The position numbers and the translations under genes were made by a program. The notes under the pieces are model-generated. The model saw only the letters and a list, made by a program, of their open reading frames with translations, was not told the DNA's origin and did no database searches. Below are positions 37,313-54,852 of a DNA stretch of 64,000 nt, one piece after another; within the stretch, counting starts at the first letter, position 1; each line of letters starts with the position of its first letter. Source of the stretch: Kribbella solani (lineage in GTDB: Bacteria > Actinomycetota > Actinomycetes > Propionibacteriales > Kribbellaceae); the NCBI RefSeq assembly GCF_014205295.1, contig NZ_JACHNF010000001.1, positions 2,728,001-2,792,000 on the forward strand, given 5' to 3'.

Positions 37313-37330
37313 CGCCTAAGGTTGGTGGGC

Positions 37331-38696: not shown

Positions 38697-39194
38697 CTAG
38701 AGCCGGCTGAACGTGAGGGTTTCGCCGCGGGCGCCGCCCATCCAGAGGTCCTGGCAGGCGGCGGCGAATTCTTCGAGGTTCTCGGTGACCGCGCCGAAAA
38801 CGTTGCCCGGTACCCAGCCCTGGTCGCCGTTGATCAGCAGGTTGTTGCGCCCGTAGAACATCGCAAGGTCGACAATCGCACCCGTGGTGCCGGTGCCGGT
38901 CGTGTTCTCGTACCCGTAGGCGGGGTTGCCCAGGTCGTCGGAGTCGAACGAGAACCAGCACAGGTCACCGGGGATCGGCGTGACTGTCGTGTTCTCCTTG
39001 CCAGGATCGGTGGGTGCGAACGCGGGCAGCAGCGTGTAGATCTCGTTCCGCGCGTACTTGCCGTGGAACACCGGCGCCGACAAGGGCAACGCGTCCCAGA
39101 CCGCCGTACATGTCCGCGGCGCCACGTCTTCCAACAGCTTCGCCACGCAGCTCACGCCACGCTTGTCCAGGCTGACGGTGATGTACTTGCTCAC
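38697..39194 (-). CDS. DUF3830 family protein
   Basis: A 165-residue cytosolic protein of a family with no proven activity, thought to have a cyclophilin-like fold. The typical pattern is clear: KRGVSCVAKLLEDVAPRTC near the N-terminus, KYARNEIYT, PIPGDLCWF, DLAMFYGRNNLL and the closing GETLTFSRL. GTG 39194 overlaps the stop of the amidase (GTGA); the longer frame is antisense noise. It is last in a three-gene operon with an amidase and a D-2-hydroxyacid dehydrogenase. Confidence 0.87.
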   Translation of the reverse strand: MSKYITVSLDKRGVSCVAKLLEDVAPRTCTAVWDALPLSAPVFHGKYARNEIYTLLPAFAPTDPGKENTTVTPIPGDLCWFSFDSDDLGNPAYGYENTTGTGTTGAIVDLAMFYGRNNLLINGDQGWVPGNVFGAVTENLEEFAAACQDLWMGGARGETLTFSRL

Positions 39195-40594
39195 TGTGCC
39201 TCCAGGGTGGGGGTGCGGAGATGCCAGTCGGTCGCGGCCTGGTACGCCTGCCCGACCCGCAGTGTCAGTGCGTCGGCGTGACGCGCCGCGACCACCTGCA
39301 AACCGGCGGGCAGCCCGGCCTTGGTGAAGCCGCACGGCACGCTGAGCGCCGGCTGCTGCGTGAGGTTGAACGGATAGGTGTACGGCGTCCAGTCGGTCCA
39401 ATCCGGCGACGCGGACCCGTCCGGTACGTCCTGGCCGACCGGGAATGCGGTGATCGGGAGCGTCGGCGTGACGAGTACGTCGTACTGCTCGTGGAACTTC
39501 CCCATCAACGTGCCGAGATCCATCCGGATCGTGGTGGCGTCGAGGAAGTCGGAGGCCGAATACGCCGAGCCGAGCTCCGCGACCCGGCGCAGTCCTGGAT
39601 CGACCCGATCGTCGACCTCGTATGACGACAGCACCTTTGCCGCGCCCGACCACCACAGCACGTTGAACGCGTCGATCGGGTCGGTGAAACCTGGATCGAC
39701 CTCGGTCACTATCGCGCCGGCGTCCGCGAGTACGCCGACCGCGGCCCGGACGAGTGCCTCCACCTCCGGGTCATTGTTGACAAAGCCGAGATCGGCCGAG
39801 AACGCGATCCGCAGTCCGGCGACGCCGTCGTCGATACCGTTCAGGAACGAGGTCGGTGGCGTCGGCATCGCGGACCAGTCACGCGAGTCGAAGCCGCTGA
39901 CCACATCGAGCAGCGCCGCCGTGTCGCGTACGGTCCGTGTCATCGGTCCGGCGTGCGACAACGTACCGAACGCGCTCGCCGGGAAGAGCGGGATCAGTCC
40001 GTACGTCGGCTTCAGCGCGACCGTGCCGGTGAACGCGGCCGGGATCCGGACCGATCCACCGCCGTCGGTACCTAATGACCACGCACCCATGCCGAGACCG
40101 ACCGCGGTCGCCGAGCCGCCGCTCGATCCGCCGGAAGTCTTGGTTGCATCCCACGGGTTGCCGGTCGCGCCGTACGTGTACGAGTCGGTGACGCCCTTCC
40201 AGGAGTACTCCGGGGTAGTCGTCTTGCCGAGGATGACCGCGCCGGTCTCGCGGAGCCGTGCGACCGAGGGCGCGTCCTGGTCCCACGGTCCGGCCGGATC
40301 GATCATCGTGCTGCCGCGCATTGTCGGCCATCCGATTGTCCACAATGCGTCCTTGATCGATGTCGGTACGCCGTCACCCGGACCGAGCGGCGTACCCGCA
40401 CGCCAGCGGGCCTCCGATTCCTTGGCCGCGGCCAACGCGCCTTCGGCGTCCACGAGGACGAACGCGTTGACCTGTTCGTCGTACTTCTCGATCGCGTCCA
40501 GCGCATACTGGGTCGCTTCGACCGGGGACAGTGCCCCGGTCCGGTAACCCTCGACCAACTCGGTTGCCTGTGTCATCGATGTTGCTTGTGTCAT
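39191..40594 (-). CDS. Amidase (amidase signature family)
   Basis: A 467-residue Ser-cisSer-Lys amidase. The catalytic Lys is in GVPTSIKDALW and the Gly/Ser stretch is TSGGSSGGSATAV; SLGTDGGGSVRIPA follows. It hydrolyses a carboxamide of unknown identity. The first residues are a duplicated MTQAT, so both ATG 40594 (overlapping the upstream stop as ATGA) and ATG 40576 are usable. It belongs to the operon that starts behind the palindrome at 42296. Confidence 0.92.
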   Translation of the reverse strand: MTQATSMTQATELVEGYRTGALSPVEATQYALDAIEKYDEQVNAFVLVDAEGALAAAKESEARWRAGTPLGPGDGVPTSIKDALWTIGWPTMRGSTMIDPAGPWDQDAPSVARLRETGAVILGKTTTPEYSWKGVTDSYTYGATGNPWDATKTSGGSSGGSATAVGLGMGAWSLGTDGGGSVRIPAAFTGTVALKPTYGLIPLFPASAFGTLSHAGPMTRTVRDTAALLDVVSGFDSRDWSAMPTPPTSFLNGIDDGVAGLRIAFSADLGFVNNDPEVEALVRAAVGVLADAGAIVTEVDPGFTDPIDAFNVLWWSGAAKVLSSYEVDDRVDPGLRRVAELGSAYSASDFLDATTIRMDLGTLMGKFHEQYDVLVTPTLPITAFPVGQDVPDGSASPDWTDWTPYTYPFNLTQQPALSVPCGFTKAGLPAGLQVVAARHADALTLRVGQAYQAATDWHLRTPTLEAQ

Positions 40595-41568
40595 CGATCT
40601 CCTGTCGGGATGTAGCCGAGCTTTTTGTCAACAATGTTCAGGAGGGGCTCGCCGGCCAGCCAGCGTTGTGCATTGTCTGCAAACTGCGCCGCCAAGGTGT
40701 CCCGCCAGCCGATGACGTCGCCGGACATGTGGGCCGTGACCGTTACGTTCGGCGCCGTCCAGAGTGGATGGTCGGGCGGCAGCGGTTCGCGATCGAACAC
40801 GTCCATGGTGGCCGCGATGTGTCCGGCGCAGACGGACGCGAGGAGCGCGGTTTCGTCGACAATCGGACCACGAGCGACATTGATCAGGTGGGTGCCCGGC
40901 CGCATCGCGGCCAGAACAGGATTGTTGACAAGGTGGCGGGTCGCGTCGGTCAGCGGCGCCGCGAGGATCACGTGGTCCGCCCAGCCGATCTCGTCCCGCA
41001 GGTTGCTGCTGGCAACGACCTCGCCGAAGTCCGGATCGCCCGAGCGAACCGTCCGGCCCGCGCCACGAACCTCCAGACCGGCCGCCCGGAGCAGGCGAGC
41101 GATCGTCCGGCCGATGCCGCCGGTACCAACGACGAGCGCCTTCGCGCCGAGGATGCTCTGGGTCTCACGATGCTGCCATTGCCGCGCGCGCTGCAGATCG
41201 AAACTGCGCATACTGTCTTTGGCGTGTGCGATCACCGCGCCGAGCACATACTCCGCGATCGGCCGGTCGAACACGCCACGCGCGTTGGTCACCACGACCG
41301 CTGAATCGCGCAACTCGTCGAAGAGCAACGTGTCCACCCCAGCCGCGGTGACGTGAATCCACTCGAGCGCGCCGGCGTCCGCCCAGACGTCCCGGACCGC
41401 AGTGGAGAAGAAGTCCCACAGCAACAGCGCCCGCGCCCCACGCACCGAGTCACGCAAACCATCCGCGTCGCAGTACCGAAAGTCGACCGCCAGCCCGCCC
41501 AGCCCCGGCGGCCGATCAGTCACCCGCTCACAAAGCACCGCCACAACAGGCCGCTCACCACCCACCAA
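40591..41568 (-). CDS. D-2-hydroxyacid dehydrogenase
   Basis: An NAD(P)-dependent oxidoreductase of the D-isomer family. The nucleotide loop is GTGGIG, and the catalytic Arg (NVARGPIVDE), Glu (FDREPLP) and His (TAHMSG) are in order. The frame is open back to 42267, giving 558 residues, but the first 233 are an Ala/Val/Pro/Gly repeat translated from a tandem array. Starting at TTG 41568 (GGAGG seven bases upstream) or GTG 41565 gives about 325 residues, the normal family length. It heads the operon with the amidase and DUF3830 genes. Confidence 0.85.
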   Translation of the reverse strand: MVGGERPVVAVLCERVTDRPPGLGGLAVDFRYCDADGLRDSVRGARALLLWDFFSTAVRDVWADAGALEWIHVTAAGVDTLLFDELRDSAVVVTNARGVFDRPIAEYVLGAVIAHAKDSMRSFDLQRARQWQHRETQSILGAKALVVGTGGIGRTIARLLRAAGLEVRGAGRTVRSGDPDFGEVVASSNLRDEIGWADHVILAAPLTDATRHLVNNPVLAAMRPGTHLINVARGPIVDETALLASVCAGHIAATMDVFDREPLPPDHPLWTAPNVTVTAHMSGDVIGWRDTLAAQFADNAQRWLAGEPLLNIVDKKLGYIPTGDR

Positions 41569-42262
41569 CGCCCCACCTCCCCGAGCCAACGGCACAGATC
41601 CCGCACCCACCAACGCCCCACCTCCCCCAGCCGCCGGCACAGATCCCACACCCACCGACACAGGTCCCGCGGCCGCCGGCCCCTCTCCCCCAGCCGCCAG
41701 CGCAGATCCCGCATCCGCCGGCACAGGTCCCACACCCGACAGCACCGGCCCCACAGCCGACGGCACAACTCCCACACCCGACAGCACAGGTCCCACACCC
41801 GCCGGCGTAGGACTCGCGGCCGACGGCGCAGCTCCCCGAACCGCCGCCGAGCTGACCGCCGAGGCGCCGGCACGCACACCAGCCGAGACGACCGCGGAGG
41901 CGCCTGCGGCGTTGGCAGAGTCACCGCTCACCGACTGCGCGACCGGAGCGGTCGCCGGAGTGACAGCGAGGGTGCCTGCCGGGGTGACAGCGGGGGTGAC
42001 AGAGTCGCCACTCCACGCCCGCTCACCAGTCACCGACTGCGCGACCGGGGCAGTCGCCGGGGCGACTGCGGGCGTGACCACTGGCGTGACCGCGGGCGTG
42101 ACGGCGGGCGTGACGGCCGAGGTGACGGCGGGGATGACAGCGTCGCCACTCCGCTCCCGCTCACCAGTCACCGACTGCGCGGCCGGCGTGGCTGCTGGGG
42201 TTGTTGCCCAGGTGGCGGGCGTGGCTGCCGGGGTGGCGGGTGAGGGGTTGGGCGGGGTGGCT
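41569..42262. repeat. Large degenerate repeat array upstream of the dehydrogenase
   Basis: About 690 bases of GC-rich repeats separate the dehydrogenase from its probable promoter. Part 1 (about 41569-41815) has units around CACAGATCCCACACCCACC; part 2 (about 41920-42235) has three copies of a block containing TCACCGACTGCGCGACCGG plus short GGGCGTGAC units. It is open on several frames simply because of composition; base use at codon third positions differs from neighbouring genes. Confidence 0.75.
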
Positions 42263-42295
42263 GGCACGCATCGAGGCTAGGAACTCGCTGGTAGG

Positions 42296-42307
42296 ATTGT
42301 CAACAAT
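42296..42307. promoter_or_regulatory. GntR-type operator A
   Basis: ATTGTCAACAAT, a palindrome (ATTGT-CA-ACAAT), 26 bases before the isomerase start at 42334 and beyond the far end of the dehydrogenase repeat array. It is one of four near-identical intergenic sites in this block. Confidence 0.65.
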
Positions 42308-42333
42308 ATCCCTGGGACCGCACACTGACTCGC

Positions 42334-43083
42334 ATGAGTACGCGTCCTCCCACTCACCCGTTGCCGGCCGCGGTGCCGACGCTCCTGCAGACGGGTATCG
42401 GCGTCGTCGCGCCGTACGACTTCGCGCTCGACCGCGAACTGTGGCGCTGGGTACCCGACGATGTCACCCTGCACCTGACCCGGATGCCGTACGCCCCGAT
42501 GGCCGCGACCGTCGAAATGGCCGTACACATTTCGGACCCGGAACTGGTCGCACGAACGACCTACAACGTGCTCCCGGTCGCCCCGCTGGCGGTCGCGTAC
42601 GCCTGTACGTTCGGGAGTTTCGTCAGCGGGCTGACCGGTGAGGCCGCGCTCGTCGACGCGATGGTCGCGGCCGGCGCCCCGGCCGCGGTGACCACCAGCG
42701 GGGCGTTGCTGCTCGCGCTCCGCCGGCTCGGCATCAACCGGATCGCGACAGTCACGCCGTACACGAACGACCTGACCGCCGGGCTGAGCAGGTTCCTCGG
42801 CGAGGCCGGGGTCGAGGTGGTCGCGACCGCCGGCCTCGGGCTGATCGCACAGATCTGGGCGGTCCCGTACGAGACCACGGTCGAGCTGGTCCGCGGCATC
42901 GACAGTGACTCCGCGGAGGCGATCTTCATCAGCTGCACGAACCTGCCGACGTACGACGTGATCGCCGGTCTGGAAGCCACCCTCGGCAAACCCGTACTGA
43001 CCGCCAACCAGGTCACGATGTGGTCCGCGCTCGAACTCGCCGGCCACACCGCGATCGGGCCGGGGCAGCGCTTGCTCGCATGA
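42334..43083 (+). CDS. Asp/Glu racemase-fold protein (maleate isomerase/EutA-like), copy 1
   Basis: A 249-residue protein of the superfamily with aspartate racemase, maleate cis-trans isomerase and arylmalonate decarboxylase. Both cysteine positions are filled: Cys91 in AYACTFGSF and Cys201 in ISCTNLPTYD, as in two-base racemases and maleate isomerase. It resembles EutA, a protein of uncertain function in ectoine gene clusters. It is followed after 99 bases by the ectoine-hydrolase-like gene. ATG 42334 lies just after operator A. Substrate unknown. Confidence 0.85.
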   Translation: MSTRPPTHPLPAAVPTLLQTGIGVVAPYDFALDRELWRWVPDDVTLHLTRMPYAPMAATVEMAVHISDPELVARTTYNVLPVAPLAVAYACTFGSFVSGLTGEAALVDAMVAAGAPAAVTTSGALLLALRRLGINRIATVTPYTNDLTAGLSRFLGEAGVEVVATAGLGLIAQIWAVPYETTVELVRGIDSDSAEAIFISCTNLPTYDVIAGLEATLGKPVLTANQVTMWSALELAGHTAIGPGQRLLA

Positions 43084-43182
43084 CCGGCGCCACCCGGCGC
43101 GCACCTACCTCAGTCGACAACACCACACGGCAGCACCACGCGACAACAGCATCCCCAAGCGAACCGGAAAGAGGTGACGTAG

Positions 43183-44367
43183 GTGTCCGACCTGCTGGAG
43201 CAGGCGGTCGAGCCGGACGAGTACTCCGGCCGGCTGACCCGGGTCCGCGCCGTCCTGGCCGAACGTGGCCTCGGCGCGCTGGTCGTGAGCGATCCCGCGA
43301 ACCTCTTCTACCTGACCGGGTACGACGCGTGGTCGTTCTACACGCCACAGTGCCTGCTGGTCCCGGCCGACGGCGAAGTGCAGTTGTTCGCGCGGGCGAT
43401 GGACGCGGCCGGGGCGTCGTACACGTGCAACCTGCGCGCCGACCAGATCCACGGGTACCCGGAACATCTCGTGCATCGACCGGACATTCATCCGTACGAC
43501 TGGATCGCCGGCGTATGCCGGGACTTCGTACCGGTTGGCGCGGATGTCGCGGTGGAAGCGGACGCGCACTACTTCACGCCCCGCGGTTATCTTGCTCTTG
43601 GCAACGGACTGCCCGGCCGCCGGCTGCTCGACTCGGCCGAGTTGGTGAACTGGGTCCGGCTGGTGAAGTCGGAGCACGAACTGCGCCAACTGCGGATCGC
43701 GGGCGGGATCGCCGAGCAGGCGATGCGGATCGCGCTCGATCAGCTCCATCCCGGCGTACGGCAGTGCGACCTGGTCGCCGAGATCCTCGCCGCGCAGGCG
43801 ACCGGTACGCCGGAGCACGGCGGCGATTACCCCGCGATCGTGCCGATGCTGCCGACCGGCAACGCCGCCGGTACGCCGCACCTGACCTGGACCGACCGTC
43901 CGTTCGTCGCAGGTGAAGCGACCACGATCGAACTGGCCGGCGTATTCGGCCGGTACCACGCGCCGCTGGCCCGGACGATGATGCTCGGCGATCCGCCGCG
44001 TCGGCTCCGCGAGACCGCCAAGATCGTTGCCGACGGCATGAGCGCCGCATTGTCGACAATCTGGCCAGGTGTCACCGGCAGCGCCGTTCACGCCGCGTTC
44101 AACGACGTGATCGCGGCGCACGGACTGGTGAAGGAATCCCGGATCGGGTACTCGATCGGCATCGGGTACCCGCCGGACTGGGGCGAACGCACCGTCAGCC
44201 TGCGCCCCGAGGAGACCACCGTGCTGACCGCGGGGATGGCGTTCCACGTCATCCTCGGGATGTGGATGGACGGCTGGGGATACGAGCTGTCCGAGCCCGT
44301 TGTGGTCACCGCCGACGGAGTGGAACGTCTGACCGGACTGTCCCACGAACTGACAATCAGGAGGTAG
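43183..44367 (+). CDS. M24-fold hydrolase similar to ectoine hydrolase (DoeA/EutD)
   Basis: A 394-residue creatinase/prolidase-fold protein: an N-terminal domain (1-155) and a pita-bread domain. DPANLFYLTGYDAWSFY (37-53), HGGDYPAIVPMLPTG and PHLTWTDRP match my memory of ectoine hydrolase, which opens the ectoine ring. The usual M24 metal-ligand strand (DxG and later SD-TR) reads IELAG at 249-253 and APLART at 260-265, so at least two metal-ligand Asp residues are missing, as expected for a non-canonical member. AAAGAGGTG precedes GTG 43183. Ectoine as substrate is inference. Confidence 0.83.
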   Translation: MSDLLEQAVEPDEYSGRLTRVRAVLAERGLGALVVSDPANLFYLTGYDAWSFYTPQCLLVPADGEVQLFARAMDAAGASYTCNLRADQIHGYPEHLVHRPDIHPYDWIAGVCRDFVPVGADVAVEADAHYFTPRGYLALGNGLPGRRLLDSAELVNWVRLVKSEHELRQLRIAGGIAEQAMRIALDQLHPGVRQCDLVAEILAAQATGTPEHGGDYPAIVPMLPTGNAAGTPHLTWTDRPFVAGEATTIELAGVFGRYHAPLARTMMLGDPPRRLRETAKIVADGMSAALSTIWPGVTGSAVHAAFNDVIAAHGLVKESRIGYSIGIGYPPDWGERTVSLRPEETTVLTAGMAFHVILGMWMDGWGYELSEPVVVTADGVERLTGLSHELTIRR

Positions 44368-44372
44368 CCACT

Positions 44373-45563
44373 GTGCCAGCACTCCCCTACGCCGCTCGCG
44401 CCACCGGACTGGTGGGCTCGGTGATCGACTCGAGCACCTCGCTGCTGCACAAGCAGACGCACGACATCGTCCGCTTCGCGATGGGTTCGCCCGCCGCCGA
44501 GGCGGTGCCGGCGCGGATCTTGTCGACAATCGCCGCCGACGAGCTGAGTCGCCCGGCCGCGTACGACTATGCGGCGACCGAGGGTGATCCGCCTTTGCAT
44601 GCGGCGTTGCTGGACATGTTGCGTGGCACCAGCGACGAAACGACCGCCGATCGCCTCACCGTCACCGCGGGCGGTATGCAAGGACTCGATCTGTTCTGCA
44701 AGATCTTCGTCGACCCGGGCGATCTCGTCGTCGTCGAGTCGCCGACGTACACCAACGGCAGCGCGACCGCGCTCTCATACGGCGCCGAACTGCTCGAGGT
44801 CCCGGTCGATGGCGACGGTATGATTGTCGACGATCTACCACGCCTGCTCGACGGGCGGACCCCGAAGGCGATCTACACGATCCCGACCTTCCAGAACCCG
44901 TCCGGCGCGACGCTCTCGCTCGAACGCCGGCATCGCCTGCTCGAACTGGCCCGATCCTGGGGATCGATGGTGATCGACGACGATCCGTACGGGCTGCTGC
45001 GCTTCGAGGGCGATCCGCTTCCGACGCTGCGGGAGCTCGGCGCGGGTGATCCGCTGGTGTTCGCGGTCCGCACGTTCTCGAAGATCATCGCGCCCGGTCT
45101 GAGGGTCGGCTGGGTCGACGCCGACCCGGAGTTGCAGCGGCTGCTGATCAACGCGAAGCAGGCGATGGACACCTGTACGAACCTGCCGGCGCAGCGATTG
45201 CTCACTGGTTTCCTGGCCGGTGGACATCTGGAGGCGCACCTGGTCACGCAGCGGGCGGAGTACAAGCGCCGCAAGGAGGCGATGCACGCGGCACTGACCG
45301 AACACTTCGACGACATCGCGCACTGGACCGATCCCGAAGGCGGCTTCTTCCTCTGGGTAACGCTTGAGAACGGCGTCGACACCGAGAAACTCTTCGAGGT
45401 CGCGCTGGCCGAGGGCGTCGCCTTCATCCCCGGCCCCGCCTTCTCCCCCACCGGCCGCTTCACCGACGCCTTCCGTCTCTGCTTCGCGTCCACGCCCCCC
45501 GACCGAATCCACGAAGGCATAACCCGCCTCCGCCGCGCCACCGCCAAACTATCTCCCGCCTGA
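44373..45563 (+). CDS. PLP-dependent class I/II aminotransferase (LysN/MocR-like core)
   Basis: A 396-residue aminotransferase of fold type I. YDYAATEGDPPLHAAL, then VTAGGMQGLDL, ESPTYTNG, TIPTFQNPSGATLS and the PLP lysine in RTFSKIIAPGLRVGW are all present. It resembles 2-aminoadipate transaminase and the aminotransferase half of MocR regulators but has no DNA-binding domain. AGGAGG lies seven bases before GTG 44373, five bases after the M24 stop, so the two are co-transcribed with the isomerase. Confidence 0.92.
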   Translation: MPALPYAARATGLVGSVIDSSTSLLHKQTHDIVRFAMGSPAAEAVPARILSTIAADELSRPAAYDYAATEGDPPLHAALLDMLRGTSDETTADRLTVTAGGMQGLDLFCKIFVDPGDLVVVESPTYTNGSATALSYGAELLEVPVDGDGMIVDDLPRLLDGRTPKAIYTIPTFQNPSGATLSLERRHRLLELARSWGSMVIDDDPYGLLRFEGDPLPTLRELGAGDPLVFAVRTFSKIIAPGLRVGWVDADPELQRLLINAKQAMDTCTNLPAQRLLTGFLAGGHLEAHLVTQRAEYKRRKEAMHAALTEHFDDIAHWTDPEGGFFLWVTLENGVDTEKLFEVALAEGVAFIPGPAFSPTGRFTDAFRLCFASTPPDRIHEGITRLRRATAKLSPA

Positions 45564-45747
45564 CAACACCGATTCCCCCAACCACCCGGCAACCATCCCC
45601 CAGCGACAGCTCCACCACCGATCAGCCGTCCACGGTGCCGTGCGGCGGGGGTCCTCGGTGCCGGGTGCCGATGCTGGGGCGCTCGGTGGGGATGCTTGGT
45701 GGAGGTAATCCTGGGTGACAGCAGCGGAGGGCAGAGCGTGCGGCTGC

Positions 45748-48700: not shown

Positions 48701-48834
48701 GCCCGCGTACGCCGGTCGTTGGCCACTTCGCCGCGCAGTTCCCGGCGAAGCGCGGCGACCAGCCGCGAGATGTCGTACCCGGTGGAGCCGATTGTTGGAT
48801 CGTCTGGGGTTAACATTGTCGACAATCTACTCAT
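45748..48834 (-). CDS. FAD-binding and Fe-S oxidoreductase (GlcD-GlcF type fusion)
   Basis: About 1028 residues. The N-terminal half is a PCMH FAD domain (VVRGGGTSMAGNAIGG) with its GlcD-type C-terminal part. The rest has two Fe-S clusters (CVGIGKCRQ, and CLSCKGCLSDCPVN) and CCG-type cysteine domains (PVCCGLTWI, DPGCCGLAGNFG). Such fusions oxidise 2-hydroxy acids such as D-lactate or glycolate and pass electrons to quinone. ATG 48834 or 48816 are possible starts and operator B overlaps them. Two low-complexity inserts stand out: a GRDGLTARDAL-like stretch near residues 200-240 and a TGADT repeat at the C-terminus. Confidence 0.9.
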   Translation of the reverse strand: MSRLSTMLTPDDPTIGSTGYDISRLVAALRRELRGEVANDRRTRALYAADGSNYRAVPDLVVVPADADELAAAVTLTAAAGAPVVVRGGGTSMAGNAIGGVVIDTSRHVNRILELDPVARTAIVEPGVVLTDLLAAGRPHGLAFGADPSSASRATLGGMIANNACGAHSVAWGTTADNLQSLDTVLADGTRLTFAATRDTLTGRDGLTARDALADQGASGGRDGLAGREVLAARPGREGELHRALQSFVDRNELLIRRRFGQFTRQISGYALHRLLPEYGYNVAGLLAGSEGGLAATLRATVRLTELPKAKVLCVLGFTDSITSADCVPVVLRHHPLTMESINNKLVDRLPAEVRDAAVSAGLPPGNAWLLVEVGADDEPAAGGAARTMLEELRDSGSPATASLVTDPKAQAVLWRCRTDAAGLATRRADGAEAWGGWEDAAVPPERLGAYLRGLDELLGRHGLSGASYGHFGEGCMHMRIDFDLLSTGGVATYRNFVDQAADLVVELGGSVSGEHGDGRARGELLSKMYGADGVALFGELKRIWDPAGVLNPGMIVDPPRLDLAIRHDGVAKNRHVATLFDYPDDEHDFARAQRRCVGIGKCRQTSGSVMCPSYQVTREELHSTRGRAHLLWEMLQGDLITDGWRSTEVRDGLDLCLSCKGCLSDCPVNVDVATYKAEFTHHHYARRPWARPLSHWSMGWLPLWSRFASRAPKLANRFAGLQLTKRLGGIAAERAVPPFATETFAQWFNRREGSSSRSRSEGERGGRKVVLWPDTFTNYLAPEVGRAAVEVLEAAGFEVVLPDKPVCCGLTWISTGQLTTARRVLNRSVQALAPHLAAGTPIVGLEPSCTAALRDDARRLMVDNPLVDSLAANTRTFAELLVEAGWKPPRVGGEAYVQPHCHQHAVLGFDADRELMSAAGIDARVADPGCCGLAGNFGFERDHYELSKAVGERTLLPAVRSLPDATTVLADGFSCRTQITQGTSRRPHHLAELLATALPNPNPTSTGADTSTGADTGTGTGRGEASS
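48815..48826. promoter_or_regulatory. GntR-type operator B
   Basis: ATTGTCGACAAT, a perfect 12-base palindrome, between the divergent FAD oxidase and isomerase genes. It overlaps the ATG at 48816 of the oxidase gene, and another half-site (ATTGTTGGA) lies near 48791. ACAATCTAC is shared with operator C. Confidence 0.7.
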
Positions 48835-48861
48835 TTCGGTTGACGTCAGCCAGGAGGTCGG

Positions 48862-49590
48862 ATGGTCACGGTAGGGCTGCTCTATCCCGGACACAGCGCG
48901 GAGGACGACTACCCGACGCTCGAGGCGCGGCTGGACGGGACCGTGAAGCTGCCGGTGGTGATCACCTCCGTCGGTGAGGACGCGCACCGGGTGGACGCGC
49001 TGCTCGACCTCGGTCGCGCCGAGCGGCTTGCCGAAGGCGCTGCCGAGCTCGCGCCGGCCCAGCCGGACGCGGTGATGTGGGCCTGCACGTCGGGCAGCTT
49101 CGTGTTCGGCCGGGAGGGCGCGAACATCCAGGCGGCCGGCGTGGCGCAGGCGCTCGGCGTACCGGCGTCGTCCACCTCGATCGCCTTCGTCGACGCCTGC
49201 CGGGAGCTCGGCCTGCGGCGGGTCGCCGTGGCCGCCTCGTACCCGGAGGAGGTGGCGCAGCACTTCGTCCGCTTCCTCACCGGCGGCGGCGTCGAGGTGG
49301 TGTCGATGGGCAGCAACGGGATCATCACCGCCGCCGAGGTCGGCACCCTGGCGCCCGAGCAGGTGGTGGCGATGGTGAAGGCCGCCGACCACCCGGACGC
49401 CGAGGCGATCCTGGTCCCCGACACCGCGATGCACACGCTGGCGATTGTCGACGATCTCGAGGCGGCGGTCGGCAAGCCCGTACTGACCGCGAACCAGGTG
49501 ACGGTCTGGAAGGGCCTCCAGTTGACCGGCGTTGTACCGTCATTGCCACATCTGGGGACGCTGTTCGCCACAAGGGGGAAGCAAGAGTGA
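48862..49590 (+). CDS. Asp/Glu racemase-fold protein (maleate isomerase/EutA-like), copy 2
   Basis: A 242-residue paralogue of the 42334 product. The first cysteine is kept (Cys75 in WACTSGSF), but the second position reads VPDTAMHT with Asp187, so it has one catalytic Cys, as in arylmalonate decarboxylase. The two copies therefore probably do different reactions. AGGAGG precedes ATG 48862. Its stop overlaps the GntR start (GTGA), so it is co-expressed with the regulator. Confidence 0.85.
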   Translation: MVTVGLLYPGHSAEDDYPTLEARLDGTVKLPVVITSVGEDAHRVDALLDLGRAERLAEGAAELAPAQPDAVMWACTSGSFVFGREGANIQAAGVAQALGVPASSTSIAFVDACRELGLRRVAVAASYPEEVAQHFVRFLTGGGVEVVSMGSNGIITAAEVGTLAPEQVVAMVKAADHPDAEAILVPDTAMHTLAIVDDLEAAVGKPVLTANQVTVWKGLQLTGVVPSLPHLGTLFATRGKQE

Positions 49591-50234
49591 CCGATTACAT
49601 CGAGCCGCTGGTTCAGGAGTCGACGCCGAGCATCATCGCCGACAAGCTGCGCAAAGCCATCGGCTATGGCGAGATCAAGCCTGGCTCGCAGCTCGCCGAG
49701 GCCGACCTGGCCCGCAAGCTGGGCGTCAGCCGGGGACCGCTGCGCGAGGGCATGCAGCGGCTCACCCAGGAAGGGCTGCTGATCTCCATCCGCAACCGCG
49801 GGCTGTTCGTCGTCGACCTGACGCCGGACGACATCCGCGACATGTACGTGGCCCGGCAGGCGATCGAGCTGGCCGCGGCCAGGCAGATCCTGGCCGGCGA
49901 ATTCGAAGCGGCCGGCAAGGCGCTGTCCGCGTTCGGCCACGCGATGCTGGATGCGGACGGCGATCCGGGTGCCATCGGCGAGCTGGATATCGAGTTCCAC
50001 GAGACCCTGGTCCGGCTGTCCGGCAGCCCGCGGCTGATCCGGATGCATCAGACGTCCATCATCGAGACCCGGATGTGCATCCACGCGCTGGAGGAGACGT
50101 ACCTCGCGACCGACGTCCGCGCGATGGAACACTCCGATCTCGCCGAAGCGATCGGGGCCGGCAACGTGGCCCGTACCGAGATGCTTCTGCTGGCGCACAT
50201 GGACGACGCGATCGAGCGGCTGGTCAACCGCTGA
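49587..50234 (+). CDS. GntR-family regulator with FCD domain
   Basis: A 215-residue FadR-type regulator. The winged helix spans about 15-75, with the recognition region ADLARKLGVSRGPLREGM, and the all-helical FCD ligand domain follows, with an FHETLV metal-site His. FCD-GntR proteins typically bind palindromes of the form TTGTNNACAA, matching operators A-D around it. It is probably the local repressor and autoregulated through operator B. GTG 49587 overlaps the upstream stop. The 3' end overlaps the convergent aldehyde dehydrogenase by 11 bases. Confidence 0.92.
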   Translation: MTDYIEPLVQESTPSIIADKLRKAIGYGEIKPGSQLAEADLARKLGVSRGPLREGMQRLTQEGLLISIRNRGLFVVDLTPDDIRDMYVARQAIELAAARQILAGEFEAAGKALSAFGHAMLDADGDPGAIGELDIEFHETLVRLSGSPRLIRMHQTSIIETRMCIHALEETYLATDVRAMEHSDLAEAIGAGNVARTEMLLLAHMDDAIERLVNR

Positions 50235-51711
50235 CGGCAATCCCGATGTACTTCGTCTCCAGGAACTCGTCGATCCCGACGGCACCGCCCTCCCGGCCGA
50301 GCCCGGACTGCTTCACCCCGCCGAACGGTGCCGCCGGGTTCGACACCACCCCCTGATTGAGGCCGACCATGCCGGTCTCGATCGACTCCGCCACCCGCAG
50401 CGCCCGGCGCAGGTCGTTCGTGAAGACGTACGCGACCAGCCCGTACTCGGTGTCGTTCGCGGCCGCGATCACCTCGTCCTCGGTGCTGAACGGCGTCAGC
50501 GGCGCGACCGGCCCGAAGATCTCCTGATCCGCCATCGCGGCGTCCCGCGGTACGCCGGTGAGCACCGTCGGCGGGTAGAAGTACCCGTCGCCCGGCGCGA
50601 TCTCGCCGCCGGTGAGTACGGTGGCGCCCCGCCCGACCGCGTCCGCTACGAGCGAACGCACTTTGTCCCGGCCGGCCTCGTCGATCAACGGCCCGACCTT
50701 GATGTCCGGTTCGGTGCCCCGCCCGACGGTCAGCGCGCCCATCCGGTCCGCTAGCCGGCGACCGAACTCGTCGATCACCGCATTGTGAACAAAAATACGA
50801 TTGGCAGCCGTACACGCCTCGCCCATGTTCCGCATCTTGGCCGCGATCGCGCCGTCGACCGCCTCGTCAAGGTCGGCGTCCTCGAAGACGATGAACGGTG
50901 CGTTGCCGCCCAGCTCGAGGGAGGTACGGAGCACCTTCTCAGCGCATTGTTCGAGCAGGACGCGACCGACTCGAGTGGACCCGGTGAAGGACAGCTTGCG
51001 GGCCAGCCCGGACCGAATCAGTGGCTCCATCACACCGCCCGCGTCCATCGCGGTGACACAGTTGACCACGCCCGCCGGTACGCCGGCCTCGGCCAGGATG
51101 CCCATCAACGCGAGCATCGACAGCGGCGTCTGGTGCGCGGGCTTGATCACGCTCGTGCAGCCGGCCGCGATCGCCGGGCCAAGCTTGCGGGTTCCCATCG
51201 CCATCGGGAAGTTCCACGGGGTGATCAGCAGACAGGGGCCGACCGGTTGCTTCGTGATCAGGAAGCGCGCGTTCCCAGCCGGCGCGGTCTGGTACCCGCC
51301 GTCGATCCGCAGCGCTTCACCGGCAAAGTGCCGGAAGAACTCGGCCGCGTACGCGATCTCACCACGGGCCTCGGGCAACGGTTTGCCCATCTCCAGGGTC
51401 ATCAGCAGCGCCAGCTCGTCGGTGCGCTCGATCAGCAGTTCGTACGCCGCGGTGAGCATGTCGGCGCGTTCGCGTGGCGAGGTACGGGCGAAATCCGGCT
51501 GCGCCGCGACCGCCGCGTCGAGTGCGGCGCGACCGTCCGCCGGAGTCGCGTCGGCGACCGCGCACAGGACCTGACCGGTGGACGGATCGACGACATCGAA
51601 GGTCGCGCCGCCACTGGACTCGATCCATTTGCCGTCGACGAACAACCGCTTCTCGACGGCATCCACGACGCGTACTTCGTCCTTGGCGTGTGCTTCGTCC
51701 GGCCGGTTCAT
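50224..51711 (-). CDS. Succinate-semialdehyde dehydrogenase-like aldehyde dehydrogenase
   Basis: A 495-residue NAD(P)-dependent aldehyde dehydrogenase. It has the TPWNFP segment, LELGGNAPFIVF and the catalytic Cys in MGEACTAANRIFV, with PFGGVKQSGLGREGG near the end. Similarity is to GabD-type enzymes. ATG 51711 was chosen; it overlaps the stop of a small upstream frame as ATGA. With the divergent class III aminotransferase it forms an amine-to-acid module. It is governed by operator C. Confidence 0.93.
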   Translation of the reverse strand: MNRPDEAHAKDEVRVVDAVEKRLFVDGKWIESSGGATFDVVDPSTGQVLCAVADATPADGRAALDAAVAAQPDFARTSPRERADMLTAAYELLIERTDELALLMTLEMGKPLPEARGEIAYAAEFFRHFAGEALRIDGGYQTAPAGNARFLITKQPVGPCLLITPWNFPMAMGTRKLGPAIAAGCTSVIKPAHQTPLSMLALMGILAEAGVPAGVVNCVTAMDAGGVMEPLIRSGLARKLSFTGSTRVGRVLLEQCAEKVLRTSLELGGNAPFIVFEDADLDEAVDGAIAAKMRNMGEACTAANRIFVHNAVIDEFGRRLADRMGALTVGRGTEPDIKVGPLIDEAGRDKVRSLVADAVGRGATVLTGGEIAPGDGYFYPPTVLTGVPRDAAMADQEIFGPVAPLTPFSTEDEVIAAANDTEYGLVAYVFTNDLRRALRVAESIETGMVGLNQGVVSNPAAPFGGVKQSGLGREGGAVGIDEFLETKYIGIAVSG

Positions 51712-51842
51712 GCACGACCCCGCTTCGCCGCAGCCGCTGAGGTCTCCCGGCCACCGACCGGAAGCTGCCCACTCCACCGCAACGGGATCCCACCACCCGC
51801 TCCCGGGCTGGGATTGATGATGCACTCGTTCCGGTCGTCCAT
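51708..51842 (-). CDS. Possible 44-residue leader peptide or small protein
   Basis: A frame of 44 codons starts at ATG 51842, with GAAGGGG five bases upstream, and ends exactly on the dehydrogenase start (ATGA). Its product begins MDDRNECIINPSPG and ends AAAAKRGRA; no family is recognised. It could be a real small protein, a coupling leader, or chance in GC-rich DNA. Confidence 0.4.
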   Translation of the reverse strand: MDDRNECIINPSPGAGGGIPLRWSGQLPVGGRETSAAAAKRGRA

Positions 51843-51881
51843 GAGCACCCCTTCACCGGCTTCGGCAGCTGAGATACGCTG

Positions 51882-51893
51882 ATTGTCAACAAT
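51882..51893. promoter_or_regulatory. GntR-type operator C
   Basis: ATTGTCAACAAT, flanked as GATTGTCAACAATC, between the aldehyde dehydrogenase leader and the class III aminotransferase gene. ACAATCTAC follows, as in operator B, and TTGACGT lies close downstream in both. Confidence 0.7.
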
Positions 51894-51922
51894 CTACCAT
51901 TTGACGTTCAGAGGGGAAGTCC

Positions 51923-53176
51923 GTGGCCGAGCTCTCGCAAATCCTGAAACAGGCGACCGGTGTGGTCGCCGCCCGCGGTACGGGCGTGCAACTGTTCGAC
52001 GAGGACGACCGCCGATATCTGGACTTCACCGCGGGCATCGGCGTCACGTCGACGGGGCACTGCCACCCGCGTGTGGTCGCGGCCGCCCAGGAGCAGGTCG
52101 GCCGGATCATCCACGCGCAGTACACGACCGTCATGCACCGGCCGCTGCTCAACCTGGTGGAGCGGCTCGGCGACGTACTCCCCCAGGGTCTGGACCGGAT
52201 GTTCTTCGCGAACTCCGGCAGCGAAGCGATCGAGGCCGCCCTGCGGCTGACCCGCCAGGCGACCGGCCGGCCGAACGTGATCGTGTTCCACGGCGGATTC
52301 CACGGCCGGACCGTGGCCGCGGGCTCGATGACGACCTCCGGTACCAAGTTCCGGTCCGGTTTCAGCCCGTTGATGGCCGGCGTCCACGTGTCGCCGTTCC
52401 CCGACCCCGGCCACTTCGGCTGGCCGGTCGAGCAGGCCACCGACTTCGCGCTCAGCCAGCTGGACTACGTACTGCAAACCCTGAGCGCGCCGGCCGACAC
52501 CGCCGCGTTCTTCGTCGAACCGGTGCTCGGTGAGGGTGGGTACGTGCCTGCGAACGAGCGGTTCTTCGCCGGCCTGCGGGAGCGCGCGGACGCGCACGGG
52601 ATTCTGCTGGTTGTCGACGAAGTACAGACCGGGTTCGGGCGTACCGGGAAGTTCTGGGGCGGCGACCACTTCGGATCGCGACCGGACGTTGTCGTCACGG
52701 CGAAGGGGCTGGCGTCCGGGTTCCCATTGTCTGCAATCGCCGCGTCGTCGGAGTTGATGGAGAAGGCCTGGCCTGGTTCACAAGGTGGGACCTACGGCGC
52801 GAACGCGGTGGCGTGCGCGGCCGCGCTGGCGACACTCGACGTGATCCAGGACGAAGGCTTGGTACAGAACTCGGCCGAGCGGGGCGCGCAGCTCAAGCAG
52901 GCATTGCAGCTGGTCGCGGACAAGCACGAGCGGATCACCGACGTACGCGGACTCGGCCTGATGATCGGCAACGAGTTCCGTGACGCGAACGGGAAGCCGG
53001 ACCCGGTGACGGCGGCAGCGGTTCAGCAGGAGGCGGCGCGGCGCGGGCTGCTCCTGCTCACGTGCGGCGCCTGGGGCCAGGTCGTCCGCTTCATCCCGGC
53101 GCTGGTCGTCTCCCCCGACGAGATCGACGAAGCCGCCGCCCTCTGGTCCGACGCGGTAACCGCCGTAGCCGGCTGA
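51923..53176 (+). CDS. Class III aminotransferase (4-aminobutyrate/diaminobutyrate type)
   Basis: A 417-residue PLP enzyme that moves an omega-amino group to 2-oxoglutarate or pyruvate. Motifs: NSGSEAIEAALRLTR, HGGFHGRT, VDEVQTGFGRTG and the PLP lysine in VTAKGLASGFP. Relatives include GabT and the diaminobutyrate aminotransferase DoeD of ectoine breakdown. GAGGGGAAG precedes GTG 51923. With the divergent aldehyde dehydrogenase it forms the typical two-step removal of a terminal amine. Confidence 0.93.
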   Translation: MAELSQILKQATGVVAARGTGVQLFDEDDRRYLDFTAGIGVTSTGHCHPRVVAAAQEQVGRIIHAQYTTVMHRPLLNLVERLGDVLPQGLDRMFFANSGSEAIEAALRLTRQATGRPNVIVFHGGFHGRTVAAGSMTTSGTKFRSGFSPLMAGVHVSPFPDPGHFGWPVEQATDFALSQLDYVLQTLSAPADTAAFFVEPVLGEGGYVPANERFFAGLRERADAHGILLVVDEVQTGFGRTGKFWGGDHFGSRPDVVVTAKGLASGFPLSAIAASSELMEKAWPGSQGGTYGANAVACAAALATLDVIQDEGLVQNSAERGAQLKQALQLVADKHERITDVRGLGLMIGNEFRDANGKPDPVTAAAVQQEAARRGLLLLTCGAWGQVVRFIPALVVSPDEIDEAAALWSDAVTAVAG

Positions 53177-53193
53177 TCCACGGTCCTCGGCCT

Positions 53194-53221
53194 GACGCCG
53201 CGTCCCATCGGACGCGGCGTC
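53194..53221 (+). terminator. Terminator after the class III aminotransferase
   Basis: A perfect 12-bp stem, GACGCCGCGTCC / GGACGCGGCGTC, with loop CATC, 17 bases past the stop and followed by TTCGG. Confidence 0.85.
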
Positions 53222-53245
53222 TTCGGTTGCTCAGCTGTGTCCGTA

Positions 53246-53337
53246 CACAGCAGGAGGCCGGCCAGCGGTTTCCGGAACAAATAGTGCGCCAGCTGGCGAA
53301 TTGTTTCCGGAGATCGGCGGGCCGGCCTCCTGCTGTG
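53246..53337. repeat. Long structured palindrome between convergent genes
   Basis: Perfect 18-base arms CACAGCAGGAGGCCGGCC (53246-53263) and their complement (53320-53337) enclose 56 bases. These hold a second imperfect inverted repeat (CCGGAACAAAT and ATTGTTTCCGG) and a central GCCAGCTGGC palindrome. It sits 14 bases past the MFS stop, so it may end that transcript, but it is more complex than an ordinary terminator. Confidence 0.75.
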
Positions 53338-53351
53338 GTTCAGATTCTGGT

Positions 53352-54761
53352 TCAGGCCTTGGTGGCGGCCGGTTCCAGGTCCACCGGCGGCAGCGCGTCA
53401 TCAGTACCGGGGATTTCTGTGCCGTTCAACGGGCACCGGGAAGTCTCCGGGACCTTGATCAGCGCGATCGCACCGACCACGCAGGCCGCCATCATGTAGT
53501 ACGCAGGCACCAGCGAATCCCCGAGTTTCGCCGTCAGCCAGTCGTTCACCGCGGGCGCCGTACCACCGAAGAGCGAGGTGGACACGTTGTACGCGATCGC
53601 GAACCCGGCGTACCGCACATGGGTCGGGAACATCGCCGGGAACGTCGCCGAAATGGTCGCGAGCTGCGGTACGTAGAGCAGCCCGAGCACCGCGAACCCG
53701 ATGATCGCGCCGAGCATGTTCGTACTCATCAGCATGAACATCGGTACACCGAACACGAACAGCCCGCCGAGCGAGACCCACCACAACGGTTTTCGGCCGA
53801 CCCGGTCGGACATCCGGCCGGCGAACGGAACGAACACCATCATTGTCAACATTCCTATGATCGGCACCACCAGCGACTTGTCGGAGCTGAGCCCGATCTC
53901 CTTCTCCAGGTACGTCGGCATGTACGTCAGCAGCGTGTAGTTGACGACGTTCAGCGCGATCACCATGCCACCGAGACGCAGGATCGGCGCCCAGTACCCG
54001 GCCAGCAGGTCCCGGAACTGATGCGAGGTCTGCTCTTCCTTCTGGCCTTTCGCCTCGAGCTCGCGGAAGACCGGCGTGTCCTCGAGCTTGGACCGGAGGT
54101 ACACCCCGACCAGACCGAGCGGCGCGGCAACCAGGAACGGCAGCCGCCAGCCCCAGGAATGCATCGCCTCGTCGCCGAGCAGCAGCGAGAAGCCGAGCAT
54201 CAGCAGCGCGCCGAGCGAGAACCCGGCGAGCGTCCCGAACTCCAGGAAGCTGCCGAGGAACCCGCGCTTGCGGCTCGGCGCGTACTCGGCCATGAAGGTC
54301 GCGGCGCCGCCGTACTCACCACCGGTCGAGAAGCCCTGCACCATCCGGAGCAGCACCAGCAGCACCGGCGCCCAGTACCCGATCGTGTGGAACGAAGGCA
54401 CGAGTCCGGCGCACAGGGTCGCGCCGGACATCAGGATGATGGTGATCGCGAGTACGTGCTTACGGCCGAGCCGGTCGCCGAGCGGTCCCCAGACCAGGCC
54501 GCCGAGTGGCCGGACCAGGAACGAGACGGCGAACGTCATCAGCGCGAGCAGGGTCTGGCTCTCGGTGTCACCCGGGAAGATCGCGGCCGAGATGTACGTC
54601 ACGCCGTACGCGTAGATGCCGTAGTCGAACCACTCGGTGGCATTCCCGATCGCCGACGCGGCGATCGCCTTCTTGAGCACTCCGGGCGGCGGTTCCGCCT
54701 CAACCGTGGGGGTCGCCCCGGGCGGCGGGGTGTCCACGGGTCGTCGGTTCTCGGGCTCCAC
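53352..54761 (-). CDS. MFS transporter of the MHS family (ProP-like)
   Basis: A 469-residue proton symporter with 12 helices. It has the GNATEWFDYGIYAYG first helix, RPLGGLVWGPLGDRLGRK and RMVQGFSTGGEYGGA, which mark the metabolite:H+ symporter group that includes the proline/betaine carrier ProP. It probably brings in the compound used by this block. GTG 54761 has AGGAGG six bases upstream and is preferred over ATG 54809. Operator D lies about 80 bases upstream. Confidence 0.93.
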   Translation of the reverse strand: MEPENRRPVDTPPPGATPTVEAEPPPGVLKKAIAASAIGNATEWFDYGIYAYGVTYISAAIFPGDTESQTLLALMTFAVSFLVRPLGGLVWGPLGDRLGRKHVLAITIILMSGATLCAGLVPSFHTIGYWAPVLLVLLRMVQGFSTGGEYGGAATFMAEYAPSRKRGFLGSFLEFGTLAGFSLGALLMLGFSLLLGDEAMHSWGWRLPFLVAAPLGLVGVYLRSKLEDTPVFRELEAKGQKEEQTSHQFRDLLAGYWAPILRLGGMVIALNVVNYTLLTYMPTYLEKEIGLSSDKSLVVPIIGMLTMMVFVPFAGRMSDRVGRKPLWWVSLGGLFVFGVPMFMLMSTNMLGAIIGFAVLGLLYVPQLATISATFPAMFPTHVRYAGFAIAYNVSTSLFGGTAPAVNDWLTAKLGDSLVPAYYMMAACVVGAIALIKVPETSRCPLNGTEIPGTDDALPPVDLEPAATKA

Positions 54762-54840
54762 AGTGTTCCTCCTGTCGTTTACGGCCTCACCCGAGTGCCC
54801 ACCTCGCACAAATCAACACGCCCCACGGGAAGGTCGTAGT

Positions 54841-54852
54841 TTTGTTGACAAT
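54841..54852. promoter_or_regulatory. GntR-type operator D
   Basis: TTTGTTGACAAT, the reverse complement of ATTGTCAACAAA, one base from the palindrome of operators A and C. It lies upstream of the MFS gene. Confidence 0.6.

Follow-up and report, generated by a model that had tools for sequence, protein, structure and literature searches.

The window, a 64,000-nucleotide stretch of the 7.85-Mb genome of Kribbella solani, carries a block of about thirteen co-regulated genes that is probably an actinobacterial ectoine/hydroxyectoine catabolic regulon with a distinct set of enzymes, presumably controlled by a GntR/FCD regulator through the 12-bp palindrome ATTGTYRACAAT. Such a regulon would run parallel to the Eut/Doe system of Proteobacteria without being orthologous to it. 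Gene families were assigned using Pfam (10 proteins) and NCBIfam (14 proteins). Besides an M20-family deacylase, these comprise DUF3830, Amidase, 2-Hacid_dh (a D-2-hydroxyacid dehydrogenase, hereafter D2HDH), two proteins of the arylmalonate decarboxylase (AMDase)/EutA type (Rac1 and Rac2), M24 with a Creatinase_N domain, a class I aminotransferase (AAT-I), an FAD/Fe-S protein, GntR/FCD, an aldehyde dehydrogenase (ALDH) resembling succinate semialdehyde dehydrogenase (SSADH), a GabT-like aminotransferase and a ProP-like MFS carrier. All genes named in an earlier, sequence-only reading of this DNA are confirmed in this way. The block should, however, start further to the left than that reading had placed it, at position 37322, because the M20 gene found there, 91 bp outside the earlier boundary, belongs to the conserved set. 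Ectoine clusters of actinomycetes have already been proposed, and what is added here is the operator, the set of partner genes, the role assigned to M20 and a proposal involving D-malate. One actinobacterial version of ectoine use thus gains an operator, a list of partners, a candidate enzyme for the deacylation so far unaccounted for and testable downstream chemistry, DUF3830 is placed within an ectoine-linked regulon and the D-malate leg, if true, links the use of compatible solutes to D-malate metabolism.

Clues to the substrate

Ectoines are widespread compatible solutes, and it is quite likely that ectoine or hydroxyectoine is the substrate of the block. The strongest clue pointing to ectoine is provided by the Ehu transporters encoded within the clusters of relatives. 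The Homoserinimonas cluster contains an Ehu transporter with three components above their cut-offs (EhuB 262 against 190.9, EhuC 222 against 197, EhuA 358 against 345), and that of Nakamurella an Ehu-type ABC transporter (EhuB 264 against 190.9). In Segeticoccus (EhuB 253) and Dactylosporangium (EhuB 259), where the same cut-off of 190.9 is exceeded, the transporter is embedded among the catabolic genes, the order being FAD/Fe-S, EhuA, permeases, EhuB, Rac2, GntR, ALDH, GabT, MFS on the former contig (L118) and ALDH, GntR, Rac2, EhuB, permeases, EhuA on the latter (L117). EhuB exceeds the cut-off in nine of 36 related genomes, in the cluster in four and elsewhere in five; in Kocuria polaris such a gene is found on the M24 contig, approximately 26 kb from M24. 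Weaker EhuB matches occur in all 36 related genomes and in 11 of 14 control genomes, none of which has one over the cut-off. In the window, the ProP-like MFS protein is the presumed uptake carrier.

The M24 protein provides the second line of evidence. Its nearest solved structure is the ectoine hydrolase DoeA (PDB 6twk/6twj, E=4e-102), followed at a distance by a prolidase (3e-20). EutD/DoeA enzymes are reported to open the ectoine ring via a glutamate nucleophile, and Glu250 of the window protein aligns with Glu255 of 6twk, which we take to be this nucleophile. Glu250 is found in 133 of 133 aligned rows whose identity is 40% or higher, a count to which many nearly identical Kribbella sequences contribute. 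At two metal-ligand positions of prolidases, a prolidase-type paralogue from Kribbella has Asp and Glu, and the M24 protein has Pro and Ile. Over the columns examined (233, 250, 261, 329-335, 355 and 357), the EutD signature is thus present, with Glu at the nucleophile position, a conserved His, the YPPDWGE motif and the loss of prolidase ligands at the two ligand positions compared. In addition, the ALDH shares 47% identity with the SSADH encoded in an annotated Haematobacter ectoine cluster.

A shared operator

Outside Kribbella, the palindrome follows the cluster genes closely. The 41 loci examined from 19 genera, 830,459 bases in all, contain 60 exact copies. Each of the 60 is found no more than 350 bp upstream of a cluster-gene match, where every best match to a protein of the cluster with E<=1e-12 was counted as a cluster gene; none is inside such a match or elsewhere, and five first-order Markov resamplings of these loci each gave no site. 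Loci of Williamsia, Gordonia and Kocuria have palindromes at the D2HDH/GabT and amidase/Rac2 junctions, several Williamsia loci and one Kocuria locus have one upstream of the GntR gene, the copy at the D2HDH/Rac1 junction is kept across related loci, the copy at 48815-48826 of the window has counterparts upstream of Rac2 in relatives and that at the ALDH/GabT junction is likewise kept. As the palindromes track the cluster genes through changes in gene order outside Kribbella, the regulon is real and includes the DUF3830-amidase-racemase module. The embedded GntR/FCD protein is the candidate binder of ATTGTYRACAAT.

In the window, the palindrome occurs 33 times with up to two mismatches, against 1.26 expected from shuffles, and one extra exact copy is found at 44049, within the M24 gene. 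A slightly extended pattern gives 121 forward and 126 reverse matches genome-wide with up to one mismatch, compared with 6 and 5 for the reversed control. Block-specificity of the palindrome is not borne out, given the 42 exact 12-mers listed in the genome and one more at window position 32668. Because the motif is this common in the genome, it is weak evidence inside Kribbella alone. We also observed that, of the at least 43 exact ATTGTYRACAAT copies in this genome, at least one is intragenic and those listed all fall at 0.96-4.66 Mb; other Kribbella species likewise have copies within cluster genes.

Conservation of the gene set

The partners of M24 were counted in the same 41 actinobacterial loci; five Kribbella loci (L022-L026), non-actinobacterial loci and one actinobacterial locus from a metagenome-assembled genome (L060) were set aside. 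Presence was defined by tblastn bit thresholds that we chose, and genus names were taken from record titles. Since no locus extends beyond 10 kb on either side of M24, and five are shorter (L028, L029, L047, L052 and L054), absence in this tally may reflect their reach. A rough open reading frame caller was also used, whose '?' labels are no evidence of absence. The commonest neighbour is M20 (34 loci, in 19/19 genera), followed by AAT-I (30), D2HDH (25), ALDH and FAD/Fe-S (24 each), GntR (23), GabT and MFS (20 each), amidase and Rac1 (16 each), DUF3830 (15) and Rac2 (13). At least eight of the 12 partners are kept in 19 of the 41 loci, and the gene set is thus conserved and rearranged as one unit. 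Among the Kribbella loci set aside, those of K. pratensis (L024) and K. sindirgiensis (L023) contain all 12 partners. DUF3830, amidase and Rac1 are present together in 15 loci and therefore form an accessory module. Two Ornithinimicrobium loci (L034 and L036) keep, of the whole set, D2HDH, M24, AAT-I, GntR, ALDH and GabT, and show no FAD/Fe-S, Rac1, Rac2, DUF3830 or amidase, nor M20 at the threshold used, so AAT-I and D2HDH fall outside the accessory module.

Within Kribbella, M24 orthologues are found in 19 of 38 genomes. DUF3830 matches above 200 bits occur in 18 of these 19 and in none of the 19 genomes without M24; in the remaining M24-bearing genome the locus breaks off at the end of a contig, and just two weak matches are found. 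One further locus (L136, genome G015) looks like a decaying copy of the cluster, in which an M24 fragment is accompanied by nearby GabT, Rac2, FAD/Fe-S, M20, D2HDH and amidase genes. An even draw of genomes across the phylum was too sparse for M24 co-occurrence, as 13 of 396 genomes had a match at E<=1e-80 and three, the window's own genome included, reached 50% identity. As a separate observation, the ectoine synthase EctC exceeds its cut-off in four of the 38 Kribbella genomes (L115 and L116 among the loci), of which G007 alone also has M24; it was not found in the genome of the window.

Gene order and transcription units

The features of the block are as follows; gene starts are our choice.

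37322..38605, plus strand: M20 deacylase, ArgE/DapE type (TIGR01910, TIGR01892)
38697..39194, minus strand: DUF3830, cyclophilin-like fold (PF12903, 220 bits)
39191..40594, minus strand: amidase-signature hydrolase (NF004815, 719.7 bits, above the cut-off of 506)
40591..41544, minus strand: D-2-hydroxyacid dehydrogenase, D2HDH (PF02826, 154 bits; NF041369, 196 bits, cut-off 400)
42296..42307: operator palindrome, exact ATTGTCAACAAT, at the junction of the D2HDH operon and the Rac1-M24-aminotransferase operon
42334..43083, plus strand: Rac1, EutA/arylmalonate decarboxylase superfamily (TIGR02990, 110.1 bits, cut-off 318)
43183..44367, plus strand: M24 ectoine-hydrolase-like enzyme (TIGR02993, 409.1 bits, cut-off 613)
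44373..45563, plus strand: class I aminotransferase, AAT-I, LysN/multi-substrate type (nearest solved structures 1x0m, 3aov, 2egy)
45748..48834, minus strand: FAD/Fe-S D-2-hydroxyacid dehydrogenase, GlcD/YdiJ type (PF02913, PF01565; NF049975, 415 bits, cut-off 1350)
48815..48826: operator palindrome, exact ATTGTCGACAAT, at the FAD/Fe-S and Rac2-GntR junction
48862..49590, plus strand: Rac2, EutA/AMDase superfamily (TIGR02990, 108.1 bits, cut-off 318)
49587..50234, plus strand: GntR/FCD regulator (PF00392, PF07729)
50224..51711, minus strand: SSADH-like aldehyde dehydrogenase, ALDH (TIGR01780, 558 bits, cut-off 646)
51882..51893: operator palindrome, exact ATTGTCAACAAT, at the ALDH and GabT junction
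51923..53176, plus strand: class III aminotransferase, GabT-like (TIGR00700, 353 bits, cut-off 507)
53352..54761, minus strand: ProP-like MFS symporter (NF007927 ProP, 436 bits, cut-off 544)
54841..54852: operator palindrome, TTTGTTGACAAT, one mismatch, 5' of the MFS gene

By orientation, the units are D2HDH-amidase-DUF3830 (minus), Rac1-M24-AAT-I (plus), FAD/Fe-S (minus), Rac2-GntR (plus), ALDH (minus), GabT (plus) and MFS (minus). Because three of the palindrome copies lie between divergent genes, the palindromes would serve seven transcription units and not the five that the sequence-only reading had described; its shared palindrome stands, although the motif is also found outside the block. 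The distance from operator to D2HDH start is 752 bp in the window and 46-185 bp in 60 of the 62 loci measured; in this count, as in that of the M24 columns, the Kribbella rows include near-identical genomes and some genomes twice. The D2HDH frame is open to a GTG at 42267 and runs through repeats; in-frame GC-rich tandem repeats (periods 12, 21, 45 and 63) between 41544 and 42267 occupy much of this gap.

The deacylase step

With a confidence somewhat below that of the substrate assignment, we consider it probable that the M20 protein replaces the unrelated DoeB/EutE as N-acetyl-diaminobutyrate deacetylase. EutE/DoeB (TIGR02994) is over its cut-off in none of the 38 Kribbella genomes, the best score in the window's own genome being 96.5 against 402.7. 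The nearest solved structures of the M20 protein are acetylornithine deacetylase and succinyl-diaminopimelate desuccinylase, and its NCBIfam scores are 215.5 bits for TIGR01910 (cut-off 217.6) and 197.7 for TIGR01892 (cut-off 297.7). N-alpha-acetyl-2,4-diaminobutyrate is one carbon shorter than N-acetylornithine, the substrate of ArgE. The sequence-only reading had instead placed the amidase in the role of DoeB, an assignment that is not favoured by the 41 loci outside Kribbella, of which 34 have an M20 gene at most 10 kb from M24 and 16 have the amidase. The amidase could possibly serve an N-gamma-acetyl isomer; the neighbourhood of a Tistrella amidase was dismissed as a clue, no ectoine genes being annotated there. 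The exchange of the deacylase has precedents, because NCBIfam holds a second DoeB model, DoeB2 (NF038260), and because sections of PMC13188858 report Bacillota in which eutE is absent and abgB present. The window M20 falls short of the DoeB2 level, the best of its 55 NCBIfam families scoring 215.5 bits against a cut-off of 550 for NF038260; the haloarchaeal amidohydrolase reaches 97 bits for that model, also below this cut-off.

All 19 M24-bearing genomes of Kribbella have their best M20 match less than 10 kb away from M24, adjoining AAT-I in some genomes and upstream of DUF3830 in others, the window included. M20 as a strictly co-occurring partner of M24 within this genus is ruled out by its presence in 37 of 38 genomes. 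Among the M20 loci of 18 Kribbella genomes without M24 that were read, FAD/Fe-S still flanks M20 in five (L126, L133, L136, L139 and L141). As M20 is missing at threshold from the two Ornithinimicrobium loci, the deacylase gene of these genomes may be located outside the cluster. A different type of M20 is found at the M24 loci of haloarchaea, Shinella, Thermodesulfobacteriota and Bacillota, and the haloarchaeal, Shinella and Roseateles proteins are ruled out as orthologues of the window M20 (25-30% identity over 80-162 residues). We also note an insertion of approximately 33 residues (about 165-197) in the window M20, such that matches in several Kribbella genomes are split into residues ~1-164 and 198-426.

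A proposed pathway through D-malate

In the proposed pathway, the substrate would be imported by the ProP-like carrier and its tetrahydropyrimidine ring opened by M24, via the glutamate nucleophile, to give N-acetyl-2,4-diaminobutyrate, from which M20 would strip the acetyl group. AAT-I would then remove the alpha-amino group of diaminobutyrate to give 4-amino-2-oxobutanoate, and D2HDH would reduce this to (R)-4-amino-2-hydroxybutanoate, an analogue of gamma-aminobutyrate (GABA). GabT would convert the gamma-amine of this compound to D-malate semialdehyde, the analogue of succinate semialdehyde, the SSADH-like ALDH would oxidise the latter to D-malate and the FAD/Fe-S enzyme would finally produce oxaloacetate. 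With the alpha-amine as the target of AAT-I, there would be a natural substrate for each of D2HDH, GabT, the SSADH-like ALDH and the D-2-hydroxyacid oxidase. Consistent with these roles, the solved structures closest to AAT-I include a 2-aminoadipate aminotransferase and multiple-substrate aminotransferases, those closest to GabT are the GABA aminotransferases PuuE/GabT and those closest to the FAD/Fe-S protein are D-lactate dehydrogenase and glycolate oxidase. AAT-I is MocR-like in its aminotransferase part alone, with no DNA-binding domain found by Pfam or NCBIfam. The expectation of the sequence-only reading that a 2-hydroxy acid occurs as a later intermediate fits this gene content. The D-malate leg to oxaloacetate is nevertheless a tentative proposal, to which we give somewhat less than an even chance.

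Clusters with partly different enzymes lend this leg some support, among them the two Ornithinimicrobium loci, which keep D2HDH, AAT-I, ALDH and GabT. Nakamurella has no FAD/Fe-S gene in its cluster, a 43% identical homologue being found on another contig, and has a tartrate/D-malate-type dehydrogenase beside DUF3830 (TIGR02089, 504 against 470). Of the eight haloarchaeal M24 regions read, seven hold D2HDH, an amidohydrolase, a threonine ammonia-lyase/dehydratase and a class III aminotransferase (in Natrialba approximately 9 kb 5' of M24), and four hold FAD/Fe-S; the Haloprofundus D2HDH and FAD/Fe-S proteins, 35.5% and 34% identical to those of the window, are possible orthologues. The haloarchaeal threonine ammonia-lyase could make 4-amino-2-oxobutanoate from hydroxy-diaminobutyrate, a 4-aminothreonine. 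Taken in its broadest form, the proposal is a second ectoine route that would bypass aspartate semialdehyde and reach oxaloacetate via (R)-4-amino-2-hydroxybutanoate and D-malate (tartrate for hydroxyectoine), with haloarchaeal entry at 4-amino-2-oxobutanoate and DUF3830 as an accessory enzyme, which we regard as conceivable, but clearly short of probable. Separately, Halobaculum has an acetate-CoA ligase and a phosphotransacetylase-family gene near its M24 cluster (L114:22756-25089), as expected if acetate is released, and genes resembling aldehyde ferredoxin oxidoreductase lie near the M24 clusters of Halomarina (L112:22272-23933) and Halobaculum (L114:9980-11692), where they possibly stand in for aldehyde dehydrogenase.

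The racemase-fold, DUF3830 and amidase genes

In Rac1 both cysteine positions of the superfamily are filled (Cys91 and Cys201), and in the window Rac2 keeps Cys75 and has Asp187 at the second position; at 110.1 and 108.1 bits, both remain under the cut-off of 318 of the EutA equivalog TIGR02990. The DUF3830 model (mean pLDDT, the predicted local distance difference test score, 76.5) matches PDB 3kop, a cyclophilin-like protein of Arthrobacter FB24, at 66-68% identity, and the structures that come next in similarity belong to Pictet-Spenglerases, KslB among them (TM ~0.6, ~20% identity), and to atypical cyclophilins. In the route bypassing aspartate semialdehyde, DUF3830 would be an accessory enzyme of cyclophilin-like fold. 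DUF3830, the amidase, Rac1 and Rac2, which share the operator, may handle the stereochemistry of hydroxyectoine or N-gamma-acyl isomers. The literature searched contains no mention of DUF3830 and no paper joining it with ectoine. Plasmid records were discarded as a source of DUF3830 neighbourhoods, as they amounted to three, all from Rhizobium, with no named gene under the match.

Alternative readings

Several observations weigh against an ectoine regulon of the kind proposed here. The cluster of the window is without Ehu genes and has the ProP-like carrier only, while an over-cut-off EhuB inside the cluster is limited to four of the 36 related genomes and 27 of them have none over the cut-off. 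The M24 protein, at 409 bits, does not reach the cut-off of 613 of the DoeA/EutD equivalog TIGR02993, and in a tree it falls among other M24 proteins of actinobacteria, apart from the branch that contains the annotated DoeA of Haematobacter. This tree was inferred using a quick method with SH-aLRT (Shimodaira-Hasegawa-like approximate likelihood ratio test) support alone and is used as an unrooted split, since the branch of the prolidase-type paralogue outgroup was far too long. In the narrow sense, the M24 protein therefore lies outside the ectoine hydrolase clade, which the sequence-only reading had named as a point against itself, although the catalytic signature is kept. The M20 gene is also found in 18 of the 19 Kribbella genomes without M24, is missing at threshold from seven of the 41 loci, among them the two of Ornithinimicrobium, and has no palindrome directly upstream in the window; the palindrome itself is present at many other sites of this genome. 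In five loci, from Agrococcus, Citricoccus and Pseudoclavibacter, nothing of the set is seen except M24, M20 and MFS. Finally, TIGR02089 enzymes occur in four of five genomes without and five of 16 with an in-cluster FAD/Fe-S (one-sided Fisher ~0.08), an association that is not significant and includes a single in-cluster case, and they were therefore rejected as a general replacement of FAD/Fe-S.

The most serious alternative keeps the regulon and changes its end: GabT would act on the gamma-amine of diaminobutyrate to form aspartate semialdehyde and ALDH would yield aspartate, with D2HDH, FAD/Fe-S, AAT-I, the racemases, DUF3830 and the amidase forming a separate hydroxyectoine branch via, for example, 3-hydroxyaspartate, tartrate-like acids or oxaloglycolate. 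This arrangement has a real, if minority, chance of being correct. The identity of the ALDH to the SSADH of an ectoine cluster agrees with it, as do the tartrate name carried by TIGR02089 enzymes and the requirement of Ruegeria for EutABC in hydroxyectoine use described in parts of PMC8739950. In Segeticoccus a threo-3-hydroxy-L-aspartate ammonia-lyase (NF005454, 539 against 452) adjoins DUF3830, which supports the hydroxyaspartate branch instead of the D-malate leg. However, GabT is only 30% identical to the aminotransferase of the ectoine cluster, the SSADH/GabT pair looks suited to a GABA-like substrate and the Ornithinimicrobium loci keep AAT-I and D2HDH together with GabT and ALDH while showing no Rac1, Rac2, DUF3830 or amidase. 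Moreover, the classical end, from aspartate semialdehyde to aspartate, requires a single aminotransferase and a single dehydrogenase, and AAT-I, D2HDH and FAD/Fe-S would have no part in it.

The sequence-only reading had inferred a different cyclic or acylated amine as substrate. Accordingly, M24 would be a paralogue of shifted specificity in a block that degrades another cyclic amidine or acylated diamine, as might be expected from the scores of M24 and both EutA-like proteins below the curated ectoine cut-offs, from the several hydrolases of the block and from a genome in which EutB and EutE were not found over cut-off. We consider this unlikely in view of the in-cluster Ehu transporters, with EhuB over cut-off, in four genera and of the EutD catalytic signature retained by M24. 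The salvage of peptides or N-acyl amino acids, with M24, M20 and the amidase as peptidases or acylases, is suggested by the family names M24, M20 and Amidase and is highly improbable, as the EutD position of M24 is occupied by Glu and two prolidase metal ligands are missing from it.

Comparison with known systems

A passage of PMC5924519 (2018) describes ectoine consumers as restricted to Proteobacteria, whereas sections of PMC13188858 (April 2026) present putative, tentative ectoine clusters in Bacillota, Actinomycetota and Archaea from sequence and gene context. Background on EutD, EutE, EutABC and the regulators is given in parts of PMC8739950, PMC3187862 and PMC5320631, including the finding that deletion of eutBC in Halomonas leaves growth on ectoine unimpaired. 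The literature searched holds no paper combining hydroxyectoine with hydroxyaspartate and, with papers ranked by term count, none combining ectoine with diaminobutyrate and 4-amino-2-hydroxybutanoate wording.

The clusters of PMC13188858, as described in parts of that article, share with the window an EutD homologue without EutE, the abgB hydrolase, an aminotransferase and an aldehyde dehydrogenase, and actinomycetes are treated in general terms. The main text does not name Kribbella, Williamsia or Kocuria, its sections 8 and 9 (part 1) contain no D-2-hydroxyacid dehydrogenase or shared operator, and the Bacillota clusters as given in these parts differ in having PucR, eutB, eutC and thrA. The haloarchaeal plasmid clusters (Haloprofundus, Halorussus, Natrialba and others) resemble that of the window in combining M24, D2HDH and a class III aminotransferase (7/8), with FAD/Fe-S in 4/8. 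They differ by the other type of M20 amidohydrolase, threonine ammonia-lyase and a mostly BCCT-type carrier, and the gene tables of the eight regions contain no gene annotated as DUF3830 or racemase.

The sequence-only reading was right that the block resembles, but does not equal, a known ectoine cluster. With the proteobacterial cluster (eutABCDE-ssd-atf, ehuABCD or uehABC, EnuR and AsnC; doeABCDX in Halomonas) it shares the M24 signature, EutA-superfamily proteins, an SSADH-like enzyme and a class III aminotransferase and, in some relatives, Ehu transporters. EutB and DoeB, both reported missing in that reading, are indeed not found over cut-off (for EutB, the best score in this genome is 249.9 against 413.35 for TIGR02991), and the Haematobacter EutC had no match (E<=1e-10) in those of the loci L001-L114 that are actinobacterial. 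Differently from the proteobacterial cluster, that of the window has an M20 protein instead of the AstE/AspA-type EutE and GntR/FCD with ATTGTYRACAAT instead of the MocR-type EnuR and AsnC, and it adds AAT-I, D2HDH, FAD/Fe-S, DUF3830, the amidase, a second EutA-like protein and the ProP-like carrier.

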